Below are positions 7,778-11,621 of a DNA stretch of 36,591 nucleotides, in pieces. Every line of letters begins with the position of its first letter. Within the stretch, counting starts at the first letter, position 1. The DNA lies in IMG/VR virus record IMGVR_UViG_3300026519_000647, positions 1 to 36,591 of that record; one strand, 5' to 3'. Below the pieces are notes generated by a model that was not told the DNA's origin, ran no database searches, and worked only from the letters and a program-made list of their open reading frames with translations. This DNA comes from a virus. Both the position numbers and the translations under genes were made by a program.

Positions 7778-8068
7778 ATGACTGACAAAACCGCAGACAA
7801 ACCAGCATGGCATCTCGACCGAAAAATTCCCATTGGCATTATCATCACTATATTATTCCAAGCCGCTGGCGGCCTGTGGTTTCTCTCCAAACTCGACAGC
7901 CGCCTTGACGTGCTGGAAAAACAGGATGCTGAAAACGTGCAGGTCAACAAAGCATTTTTCGCCCTCGAAGCCAACATGAGAACAACACAAGATTCCCAAG
8001 CGCGGATAGAAAAAAGCCTGGATAAAATGAATGACCGCCTGAACCGTCTCATAGAAAAGGACAATTAA
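7778..8068 (+). CDS. Small membrane-anchored coiled-coil protein in the lysis cassette
   Basis: This 96-residue protein has a single hydrophobic segment (about residues 17-36, IPIGIIITILFQAAGGLWFL) followed by a long charged coiled coil ending in repeated LxxL/R pairs. I start it at the ATG at 7778, preceded by AAAGGAAA, rather than an upstream GTG at 7757 inside gene X. It lies between X and the three-TM holin candidate. Position and topology suggest a holin partner or antiholin, as small TM/coiled-coil proteins are common in phage lysis cassettes. No family is recognised with confidence. Confidence 0.75.
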   Translation: MTDKTADKPAWHLDRKIPIGIIITILFQAAGGLWFLSKLDSRLDVLEKQDAENVQVNKAFFALEANMRTTQDSQARIEKSLDKMNDRLNRLIEKDN

Positions 8069-8069
8069 G

Positions 8070-8393
8070 ATGAAAAATGTATTCAAACGCGCCAGTATTT
8101 ACATCGGCAAAAACCCGATCATCCTCTTGGTGATACTCGCCTTGCCCGCCCTCACACTGTTCAACTATTTATTCGGCGCTGCGCTGACTGAAAACGGCAC
8201 GGCGGTATTTCTGACCGCTATCCTTGGCGTTATACTTCTGTTTGCCGCAATCCGCCTGTCCATGTATTTCAAATATTTCTCGCATCTATCTTATGTAAAA
8301 CAAATAACGGAGGATCCAAATGCGCTTGCTCATTTACTTGGTAGTATCTTTATCGGCGTTGCTATCGTCGTCGGTCTCATTCTCGGCGGATAA
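8070..8393 (+). CDS. Three-transmembrane protein, probable holin
   Basis: This 107-residue protein has three hydrophobic segments at about 16-36 (NPIILLVILALPALTLFNY), 44-63 (NGTAVFLTAILGVILLFAAI) and 86-106 (AHLLGSIFIGVAIVVGLIL), with basic residues between. It starts 1 base after the preceding gene and its 3' end overlaps the lysin start by 74 bp in another frame. P2 has its holin (Y) at this location. The size, three segments and neighbouring signal-peptide lysin support a holin that triggers lysis, but no family motif is evident. Confidence 0.7.
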   Translation: MKNVFKRASIYIGKNPIILLVILALPALTLFNYLFGAALTENGTAVFLTAILGVILLFAAIRLSMYFKYFSHLSYVKQITEDPNALAHLLGSIFIGVAIVVGLILGG

Positions 8394-9564
8394 TAACAAA
8401 GACAGGTTCACCGCCTGCCGACCTTACCAAGCCGATATTGCGGGGGCAGTAAAAAAATATTTCCCCCAAGATTTCCAATACCCAGACGCTATGACTGCGC
8501 AGATATACCAAGAAAGCCTGTGCGCCCGCTTTGCTGTATCCCATGCCGGTGCCCAAGGTCTCGGCCAGATTATGCCCGGCACCATGCCGGAAATCCGCCG
8601 CGCCATAAAATTCGAAAAATCACCATTCAGCAAAGCCGCCATTTATCCTGCCGCCTATTATCAAGGTAAAATGATGGTCGGCTGGACGGCGCGGCGCACA
8701 CCCTATCAACGCTGGCAATTGGGGCTTGCGAGCTATAATTCCGGCTTTGGTAGCGTCCTGAAATCCCAAAAAAAATGCGGCGGCGCGGCTCTCTGGGATC
8801 AGATTAAATATTGCCAGCATTTGGTCACAGGCAAAAACGCCGAAGAAACCATCACCTATGTAGAGCGGATAATTCGCTGGTGGACAGAATTGGCCGGACG
8901 TGACCCCATGGCCATGCCAACTGAGTTAAGCCGCTATCAACAAACTAAATTGATAAACCGCATCAATAAAAAATACGATGTAAGGCGATATTTTAGCGGT
9001 CGGGCTTGGGGGTCATATTGGGCTGTTTGGGACGGCTGGATAACCGCCGACCATGTTCACACCGCTAATATGGGCGAGACACCTTATTATGCCAGCGGTA
9101 AAATCTGCCGCGCTTACGGCGAAATAGACGCCGTGCTTTACGGCGGCATATTGCCAACCCAAAAACCCCGACCAGCCATGGACGGTGAGCGCGTCTATAT
9201 TTTAGGTTATCCAGGCGGATCCGATACGCCGAGCCTACGCACAGGCCGCGTCCTGTTTCAGCGCACCAACAGCGGATCAGATATTTATACCCACCCCGCA
9301 TGGATATTGGTGATTGATAACCCGCCTAAACGAAATCGCTTCGCCCAATTATTCGCCCATACCGAACCTGTCATTGGCGGCATGAGCGGCGGGCTTGTTG
9401 TCAGCCGTAATATGACTGCCCTCGGCGTTCTGGTTACCCAAAACGGGCGCACAGATTTGAACAATGACGGCATCCTCGATGACAGCGCCGATTTCTCTGC
9501 CTTATCGGATATCTGGCAGATTTTCAACGGCGCATGTAAGTTCTCGCGTGGGTGGGGGCAATAA
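8320..9564 (+). CDS. Lysin: secreted SLT-type lytic transglycosylase fused to trypsin-like serine protease
   Basis: This 414-residue protein has an N-terminal signal peptide (about 1-23, ending SFSA). A Slt35/Slt70-like transglycosylase domain follows (about 35-190): catalytic E65 in YQESLCARFA, GAQGLGQIMPGTM (78-89) and ASYNSG (137-142). The C-terminal half (about 225-405) looks like an S1/trypsin-like protease: H245 in GWITADHVH, D270 in GEIDAVLYG, the strand segment VYILGYPGG, and S356 in GGMSGGLVV. A DLNNDGILDD stretch (379-388) resembles a Ca-binding EF-hand loop. GGAGG (8309-8313) sets the start. It would act in the periplasm, cutting glycan strands and probably a protein target. The fusion is unusual for a lysin. 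Confidence 0.85.
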   Translation: MRLLIYLVVSLSALLSSSVSFSADNNKDRFTACRPYQADIAGAVKKYFPQDFQYPDAMTAQIYQESLCARFAVSHAGAQGLGQIMPGTMPEIRRAIKFEKSPFSKAAIYPAAYYQGKMMVGWTARRTPYQRWQLGLASYNSGFGSVLKSQKKCGGAALWDQIKYCQHLVTGKNAEETITYVERIIRWWTELAGRDPMAMPTELSRYQQTKLINRINKKYDVRRYFSGRAWGSYWAVWDGWITADHVHTANMGETPYYASGKICRAYGEIDAVLYGGILPTQKPRPAMDGERVYILGYPGGSDTPSLRTGRVLFQRTNSGSDIYTHPAWILVIDNPPKRNRFAQLFAHTEPVIGGMSGGLVVSRNMTALGVLVTQNGRTDLNNDGILDDSADFSALSDIWQIFNGACKFSRGWGQ

Positions 9565-9565
9565 T

Positions 9566-10000
9566 ATGTGGTCATTCTTATTGAAACCCAAAGTGCTGGC
9601 CGGACTGGGCGGCATTGTCCTATTCTTGGCGCTCGGCTTATATGTGCGCGGCGCAATCCACGACTACGGCCTTGGCCAATATAATCAAGGCAAGGCGGAC
9701 TGCGAAACCGCCGTGCGCAATAAAGCTGCCAAGACAAAGTTTAAATTAGAGAGTGTTCAAAAACATGCCGCCGCCGAAGCCGCAAAAACCGAAACCGTTT
9801 ATGTGACCGTCACCAAACAGGTAGCTGTCACCGACGCGCGGATTGTCGCGGAAAACACCGCCTTAAAAAAAACCATAGAAAACCTAGAAACGAGGATATC
9901 AAATGCGAAACCTGATTTGTCTGTTTGTGCTGGCCAGCCTGTCCCTGTTGACAGCTTGCGCATCCACACCAAAATTGACCGTCTCTTACAAGGCGGTTGA
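9566..10000 (+). CDS. Rz-like inner-membrane spanin (i-spanin)
   Basis: This 144-residue protein has one N-terminal transmembrane helix (about 10-29) with a short cytoplasmic start, then a long periplasmic helical region (about 40-120) typical of i-spanins. I use the ATG at 9566, one base after the lysin stop; the longer frame opening at 9464 lies within the lysin. The Rz1-like gene begins inside it at 9903 in another frame, the classical Rz/Rz1 overlap. The pair would fuse the inner and outer membranes in the last step of lysis. Sequence similarity to known Rz is weak; the call rests on topology and gene arrangement. Confidence 0.8.
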   Translation: MWSFLLKPKVLAGLGGIVLFLALGLYVRGAIHDYGLGQYNQGKADCETAVRNKAAKTKFKLESVQKHAAAEAAKTETVYVTVTKQVAVTDARIVAENTALKKTIENLETRISNAKPDLSVCAGQPVPVDSLRIHTKIDRLLQGG

Positions 10001-10277
10001 AGTCGTCGCCGCGCCTAAGCCTATCGATCCTATCGCTGAGGATATAAAGGCGGAGCCAAACCCGCCCAACCTCCCCTCTGCCGGCACATATGGCACCTCG
10101 GATATTCGCGCCCAGAAACTCGGCCTCTATGCCCTCGCCTTGCGTAAATGGGGGCGCGACTTGGTGACCGCAATCGAAAGCCGCGAACAAGCCCAAGCCA
10201 AAATGCGCGAACGCCAACAAGCGGAGCGCGATGCCGCTTTGGCAAAAATCGCCCAGTTGAATAAAGAGGAAAACTAA
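9903..10277 (+). CDS. Rz1-like outer-membrane lipoprotein spanin (o-spanin)
   Basis: This 124-residue protein begins with a lipoprotein signal peptide whose lipobox is LLTAC (Cys at 19), so it should be anchored in the outer membrane. A proline-rich part follows (AAPKPIDP, PNPPNLPS), then a charged C-terminal helix that could pair with the i-spanin. It overlaps the Rz-like gene by 98 bp in a different frame and its stop overlaps the R start by one base. Longer than many Rz1 proteins, but with the same architecture as P2-type LysC. Confidence 0.85.
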   Translation: MRNLICLFVLASLSLLTACASTPKLTVSYKAVEVVAAPKPIDPIAEDIKAEPNPPNLPSAGTYGTSDIRAQKLGLYALALRKWGRDLVTAIESREQAQAKMRERQQAERDAALAKIAQLNKEEN

Positions 10278-11232: not shown

Positions 11233-11415
11233 ATGACAAATACAGAGATGACAATGATAGAGACAACAATGGAACAAAAACAGTTTGAAGCTAAAATCAG
11301 CCAAATGCTTGCCGATGCAAAATATAATAGCATTCGCGCATTTTGGCACCCCGTACTCATCGCCGCAACTTTACTCGGTGCAGGCGCGGCACTTGGTAGG
11401 TTGTTTTTCTCATGA
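11233..11415 (+). CDS. Small membrane protein, unknown function
   Basis: This 60-residue protein begins at the ATG at 11233, preceded by AAAGGAAG. The first 40 residues are polar and Met/Thr/Glu-rich (MTNTEMTMIETTMEQ). The last 20 are hydrophobic (HPVLIAATLLGAGAALGRLFF), forming one C-terminal membrane segment. The stop overlaps the HTH gene start. It is transcribed from its own promoter rather than, or in addition to, the late operon. No family is recognised; a toxin-like or superinfection-related role is only a possibility given the paired regulator. Confidence 0.7.
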   Translation: MTNTEMTMIETTMEQKQFEAKISQMLADAKYNSIRAFWHPVLIAATLLGAGAALGRLFFS

Positions 11416-11621
11416 CCCACACGGAATTTAAACAGGCCCGGCATTTGCTGGGCCTCACCCAATCGCAAATGGGTCAGATGTTGTCAGTATCGCCGCAACA
11501 TATCCGCCGCATGGAAACCAGCCCGACCAATAAAAGCGCGCGTCAGGTAAACGGAACAACCGCCCGCCTGGTTACGGCCTATCTTGATGGATATCGCCCC
11601 ACGGACTGGCCACAAATATAA
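11412..11621 (+). CDS. Helix-turn-helix DNA-binding protein
   Basis: This 69-residue protein is almost entirely an XRE-like HTH domain: FKQARHLLGLTQSQMGQMLSVSPQHIRRMET, with the TQSQMGQML-SVSPQHIRR pair as helices 2 and 3. The remaining C-terminal part (ARLVTAYLDGYRPTDWPQI) is typical of short regulators. It starts in an ATGA overlap with the membrane peptide gene. It probably represses the promoter at 11182 through the two adjacent operators. It does not correspond to a P2 core gene and is an insertion between S and V. Confidence 0.85.
   Translation: MTHTEFKQARHLLGLTQSQMGQMLSVSPQHIRRMETSPTNKSARQVNGTTARLVTAYLDGYRPTDWPQI

Follow-up and report, generated by a model that had tools for sequence, protein, structure and literature searches.

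Lysis of Gram-negative bacteria by phages is described in terms of a holin, an endolysin and a spanin (or disruptin). By analogy of function, the closest precedent for the locus reported here appears to be LypABC of Caulobacter crescentus, which includes two trypsin-like serine peptidases required for lysis mediated by the gene transfer agent (GTA); serine-to-alanine mutants fail to lyse (PMC13236601). The likeness lies in trypsin-like peptidases that take part in a lysis freeing phage-like particles, in a related bacterial lineage; however, LypABC is CARD-NLR-like, with ATPase and endonuclease domains, and is not described as a wall-hydrolase fusion or as part of a phage cassette (PMC13236601). 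Pfam, NCBIfam and PADLOC scans found no CARD, ATPase or endonuclease domain in the lysin that we describe. LypABC, although differently built, shows that lysis in this region of the bacterial tree can depend on proteolysis. A second parallel is LysB of mycobacteriophages, an extra enzyme of the lysis cassette that deals with an outer envelope layer beside the endolysin, but LysB is an esterase, a separate protein, and acts on mycolyl-arabinogalactan (PMC5707550). The Rz/Rz1 spanins serve the same step that we propose here, at the outer membrane, but they are structural membrane proteins encoded by separate genes alongside. Our literature search, with most subscription papers outside its reach, returned no previous description of a fusion between an endolysin and a trypsin-like protease.

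The lysin gene analyzed here belongs to the lysis cassette of a P2-like prophage, whose host is a marine, Robiginitomaculum-like alphaproteobacterium. The window (the whole stretch of 36,591 nucleotides that was analyzed, IMG/VR record IMGVR_UViG_3300026519_000647) is a P2-like phage with portal, terminase, scaffold, capsid, baseplate, sheath and tape-measure genes. The lysin gene, a single plus-strand ORF with its ATG at 8320 and its stop at 9564, lies between an X-like gene (7554) and an R-like gene (10277), where P2 has its lysis genes. The cassette runs in the order holin candidate, lysin, Rz, Rz1, followed by tail genes (Table 1).

Table 1. Features of the lysis cassette and of the fused lysin, in window coordinates. 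Residue numbers are those of the lysin.
Feature	Position	Strand	Evidence
Membrane protein, one N-terminal TM and coiled-coil-like tail, first cassette gene	7778..8068	+	ORF, TM scan
Holin candidate, 107 aa, three predicted TM segments, overlaps lysin gene start	8070..8393	+	TM scan
Ribosome-binding sequence of the lysin gene, GGAGG	8309..8313	+	read from sequence
SLT transglycosylase - trypsin-like protease lysin, 414 aa	8320..9564	+	
Putative signal peptide, residues 1-23 (SVSFSA|D)	8320..8388	+	sequence reading; hydrophobic segment 3-21 in TM scan
SLT (GH23-type) domain, residues 58-155	8491..8784	+	Pfam PF01464
Catalytic Glu E65 of the SLT domain (predicted role)	8512-8514	+	sequence motif
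Linker, residues 195-220, mostly one predicted helix	8902..8979	+	AF2 secondary structure, helix 201-219
Chymotrypsin-fold protease domain (predicted), residues 221-403	8980..9528	+	Pfam, models
H245, predicted catalytic His	9052..9054	+	48/48 aligned relatives
D270, predicted catalytic Asp	9127..9129	+	47/48 aligned relatives
S356, predicted nucleophile in GGMSGG	9385..9387	+	48/48 aligned relatives
DLNNDGILDD loop, residues 379-388, calcium-type motif between two strands	9454..9483	+	conservation; model strands 367-378, 387-394
Rz-like inner-membrane spanin, N-terminal TM and periplasmic helical part	9566..10000	+	PHROG Rz-like E 0.023; TM scan
Rz1-like outer-membrane lipoprotein spanin, LTAC lipobox	9903..10277	+	PHROG Rz-like E 0.004

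The first half of the lysin matches a PHROG endolysin family (E 6e-21), and Pfam identifies its SLT domain (PF01464) well above the curated cut-off (E 6.7e-9, 35.8 bits against 21.3). These matches characterize it as a probable SLT (GH23-type) phage endolysin, predicted to cleave the wall, and its first 23 residues read as a Sec signal peptide. E65, Q83 and Y139-N140, which fall in the SLT motifs (GLxQ and AYN-type), are invariant, together with four cysteines, across the five fusions known to us from the window and the phage contigs described below. We also considered a free protease made from an internal start (ATG codons at residues 197 and 199) and rejected it: these codons are not conserved among the other fusions, and no clear ribosome-binding site was seen.

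The second half scores close to the curated cut-off (27.6 bits) of the Trypsin_2 family (PF13365), just below it when the whole protein is searched (residues 279-370, E 1.9e-5, 25.9 bits) and just above it when the C-terminal half is searched alone (E 4.1e-6, 28.0 bits). AlphaFold2 modelled this half of the full-length lysin with high confidence (pLDDT of most blocks above 85); for the SLT half, represented in the alignment by five sequences only, confidence was low. The protease domain modelled alone reached a pLDDT of 87.3 and a pTM of 0.86. With either model, the best 50 PDB fold matches were all chymotrypsin-fold proteases, among them Rv3671c, Deg/HtrA, staphylococcal V8/Spl/Esp and flaviviral NS3 (TM about 0.5-0.58 for the domain model). 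Among solved structures, proteases were reached by the fold comparison alone; a search by sequence found none of them. The S1-type Rv3671c, the Deg/HtrA and the V8/Spl/Esp proteases have the chymotrypsin fold and the H-D-S order in common with the window lysin, but they are 11-20% identical to it and are not wall-hydrolase fusions, and the lysin has no PDZ domain. The models thus point to an S1-type (chymotrypsin-fold) serine protease by fold, with predicted proteolysis, and not to an esterase (cutinase-like) fold as in LysB.

Conservation was counted, and a tree built, from 48 aligned relatives. The predicted triad is invariant in all five fusions, and in the model each of its residues appears at the place expected relative to the strands. 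The calcium-type loop is largely conserved (D379 in 45 and D383 in 47 of the 48 sequences), and N375, which precedes it, is found in all. Two cysteines are present in four of the five phage fusions, at a spacing much like that of the chymotrypsin Cys42-Cys58 disulfide; the window lysin has neither. The near-threshold Trypsin_2 score, and the Asp that precedes the catalytic His in the window lysin, would fit a catalytically dead binding module. We regard such a module as very improbable, since His and Ser are invariant in the 48 sequences, Asp is kept in 47, and the glycines flanking the predicted nucleophile are conserved. An earlier note, made from the letters of this DNA, had proposed a phage lysin with a signal peptide, in which an SLT domain (E65, GLGQIMP, ASYNSG) is joined to a chymotrypsin-like protease with the triad H245/D270/S356, in that order, and a DxNxDGxxDD calcium-type loop at 379-388. 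Each of these elements lies where it had been placed, and the domain matches, the position in the cassette, and the structure prediction and search that the note had suggested all agree with its reading of the protein as an SLT-protease lysin, so that its interpretation is supported in part. The outcome on the fold that the note had named as refuting, a C-terminal half unlike chymotrypsin, did not arise.

As for the rest of the cassette, the product of the first gene is XhlA- or releasin-like in shape, with weak PHROG matches only (e.g. hemolysin phrog_937, E 0.028). The holin candidate had no firm match in PHROG and further family searches; a small multi-TM gene that overlaps the lysin start is also found in two other loci (L102 and L032). 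Downstream of the lysin, the Rz/Rz1 pair that the earlier note had placed beside it was recovered: the Rz1-like gene begins (9903) inside the Rz-like gene in a different frame, and an Rz-like gene occupies the same cassette place in L033 and L034. Since the cassettes that we read do contain spanin genes, we rule out that the protease is a replacement for the spanins.

The SLT endolysins of Tetraselmis viridis virus S20 and of the Vibrio phage SSP002 group are about 42-47% identical to the window lysin in the SLT part but, unlike it, have no protease domain. The S20 cassette has the same order (a three-TM-like gene, an SLT lysin with a signal peptide, Rz, and an overlapping Rz1-like frame), and its lysin ends after the SLT part, at 222 aa. 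Because the S20 cassette matches this one while its SLT lysin is devoid of protease, the protease looks most like an addition to a cassette that is complete in other respects. An SLT-only relative of the lysin (54% identical; it has a signal peptide but lacks the protease) was also found at L031:4945-5727, next to a lipoprotein-like gene and amid host genes, possibly in a prophage remnant.

The earlier note had suggested a search for the same two-domain order in other phages, and we found it in four further phage contigs (L032, L033, L034 and L035); L036 is a broken copy of the fusion near L033, and the fusion of L034 corresponds to a copy integrated in a genome of another genus (G021). Independent contigs carry the same fusion, which rules out an assembly or frame artefact. 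The four fusions are 39-44% identical to the window lysin, and the fusion is therefore not recent. Rz/Rz1-like genes lie downstream of it in L032-L034. The relatives in viral contigs were found using profiles, as a scan with the single protein matched nothing; the protease domain had no match among 50,697 cultured-phage records.

The protease is also found as a separate gene without signal peptide in two other lysis cassettes. One of them (L080) contains holin candidates, the protease, Rz, Rz1 and a VanY/M15-type endolysin (VanY by Pfam), and its protease is the bare domain, with no pro-segment. The other, in prophage L026/L039, contains a holin candidate, the protease, an M15-like endolysin (by sequence motif) and an Rz-like gene. 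Overall, seven of the eight phage copies of the protease are in lysis cassettes or in a lysin. The exception, at L037:7881-8492, is a secreted protease that stands alone and is divergent; it lies in a viral contig of 74 kb, where its gene overlaps the following one. On the opposite strand, about 850 bases away, is an M15-like gene, and the region is not clearly a lysis cassette.

These separate genes bear on the possibility that the protease serves the lysin itself, cutting after export its linker or another cassette protein, and thus releasing or activating the SLT domain as a timing switch. The fused form would be exported by its signal peptide, so that some control before lysis is needed, and a linker of about 25 residues is available. 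In L080 and L026, however, the proteases are separate proteins that lack a signal peptide; their neighbours are an M15-type endolysin and a holin candidate, and there is no SLT lysin to process; furthermore, the L080 protease has no pro-segment, and S20 has an exported SLT lysin without any protease. Because the separate gene exists beside an M15-type endolysin, it is unlikely that the function is only the processing of SLT lysins, and we consider such a switch improbable.

We give about an even chance to the explanation that we prefer: a lysis-associated protease that would cut envelope proteins, added to the C-terminus of the endolysin in a P2-like prophage. The lysin would leave the cytoplasm by the Sec route and, at lysis, its SLT domain would break the glycan strands, while the protease, brought to the wall on the same chain, would cut envelope proteins. 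The likeliest substrates would be proteins holding the outer membrane to the peptidoglycan, because alphaproteobacteria such as Brucella and Agrobacterium have no Lpp, and their outer-membrane barrels are covalently joined to the wall via protein termini (PMC10787603), although the host itself may differ. That these tethers specifically are cut is possible but doubtful. Once such links were cut, the outer membrane could detach as the SLT domain opens the wall; Rz/Rz1 would then act on the outer membrane, the protease working beside the spanins, as the earlier note had proposed. Several observations weigh against a lysis protease of this kind: spanins are also present, so that in principle no protease is needed to disrupt the outer membrane; related SLT lysins exist without it; and the Trypsin_2 scores are near the cut-off.

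Among 119 genomes of the bacterial family, 37 matched the domain profile, a few with weak scores; of 385 genomes drawn from the class, two did, the window genome and one other with a weak match. Named host loci belong to Robiginitomaculum, Hellea, Litorimonas, Algimonas and Hirschia. Chromosomal genes for stand-alone proteins (about 215 aa), which lack a signal peptide and sit in ordinary gene neighbourhoods, make up most of the host copies; the domain is therefore not exclusively a lysis factor. The stand-alone copies share a neighbourhood with DNA polymerase IV-like and DivK-like response-regulator genes (names from sequence reading). Two other host proteins (L099:603-1355 and L100:2113-2835) consist of one TM segment followed by the protease domain. 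In the tree, the phage proteases, both fused and separate, form one group with modest support (88/84), and the main host group is separate (99/98); the L037 protease is very divergent, and long branches leave the details unsure.

The host copies raise the alternative of a host-derived accessory domain that travels with the lysin and serves some purpose other than lysis, such as countering competing phages or host defence. The close relatives are indeed host chromosomal genes, in the 37 family genomes, and some are membrane-anchored (L099 and L100), but the phage copies group apart from the main host clade, with the modest support given above, and all of them but L037 are in lysis cassettes or a lysin. 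We judge this alternative to be quite improbable.

Some host copies are fused to wall hydrolases. Two Hirschia proteins (L044:7341-8522 and L070:7422-8558) are fusions of GH108, PG_binding_3 and the protease, and could be domesticated lysins. They may have a link to gene-transfer-agent endolysin genes; the stand-alone GH108 genes that we read in relatives are in other neighbourhoods. In L074, PG_binding_1 and a clear CHAP domain are fused to the protease domain, and the window's own genome (G000:C56, L027:8176-9624) has a chromosomal protein with PG_binding_1, a CHAP-like part and the protease domain. Since the domain is paired with three unrelated kinds of wall hydrolase and has copies in lysis cassettes, it probably works at the wall; this is the strongest argument that the sequences offer. 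The same pairings (SLT, GH108, CHAP) bear on yet another role, in which the protease destroys surface proteins (receptor, S-layer or adhesins) so that released phages avoid sticking to debris. The cassette evidence would fit this role too, and a chymotrypsin-fold protease could cut many exposed proteins; the fusions, though, point to the wall and not to the cell surface, and we find it an unlikely explanation.

There is a fair chance that the fusion, a variant of the phage endolysin, marks a new class of lysis protein. If a lysis protease is indeed at work, a protease of the cassette would be an additional enzyme class in Gram-negative phage lysis, and it would become testable how phages handle outer membranes whose links to the wall are proteins other than Lpp. 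It would be a counterpart, on the phage side, to the trypsin-like peptidases that Caulobacter needs for lysis. The recurrence of the protease in the lysis machinery of related viruses suggests that cleavage of envelope proteins is a further means by which some phages leave the cell. More tentatively, and with less confidence than in a lysis role at this locus, phages of Maricaulales-type marine alphaproteobacteria may rely on an additional kind of lysis protein, a "lysis protease" acting on the protein links between outer membrane and wall, either as the C-terminal domain of an endolysin or as a separate cassette gene, with bacteria having kept copies fused to wall hydrolases for a lysis function of their own.

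We made several minor observations. The stand-alone host proteases (L002:1363-2010, L056:7893-8537 and orthologues) have a conserved MSFFRFFRR-like N-terminus and no signal peptide. The L099 and L100 proteins share a TADH motif and a GGSD.P.LR stretch with the window lysin. The Hirschia GH108 fusions are at a common chromosomal site, with a hisI-like gene upstream and rluD/rpoH-like genes downstream. At L089:1189-1848, in a relative, a GH108 gene is followed by a membrane-protein gene and an efp-like gene; this may be a gene-transfer-agent lysis pair. Finally, a small helix-turn-helix-like ORF (11412-11621) lies amid the tail genes of the P2-like phage in the window.
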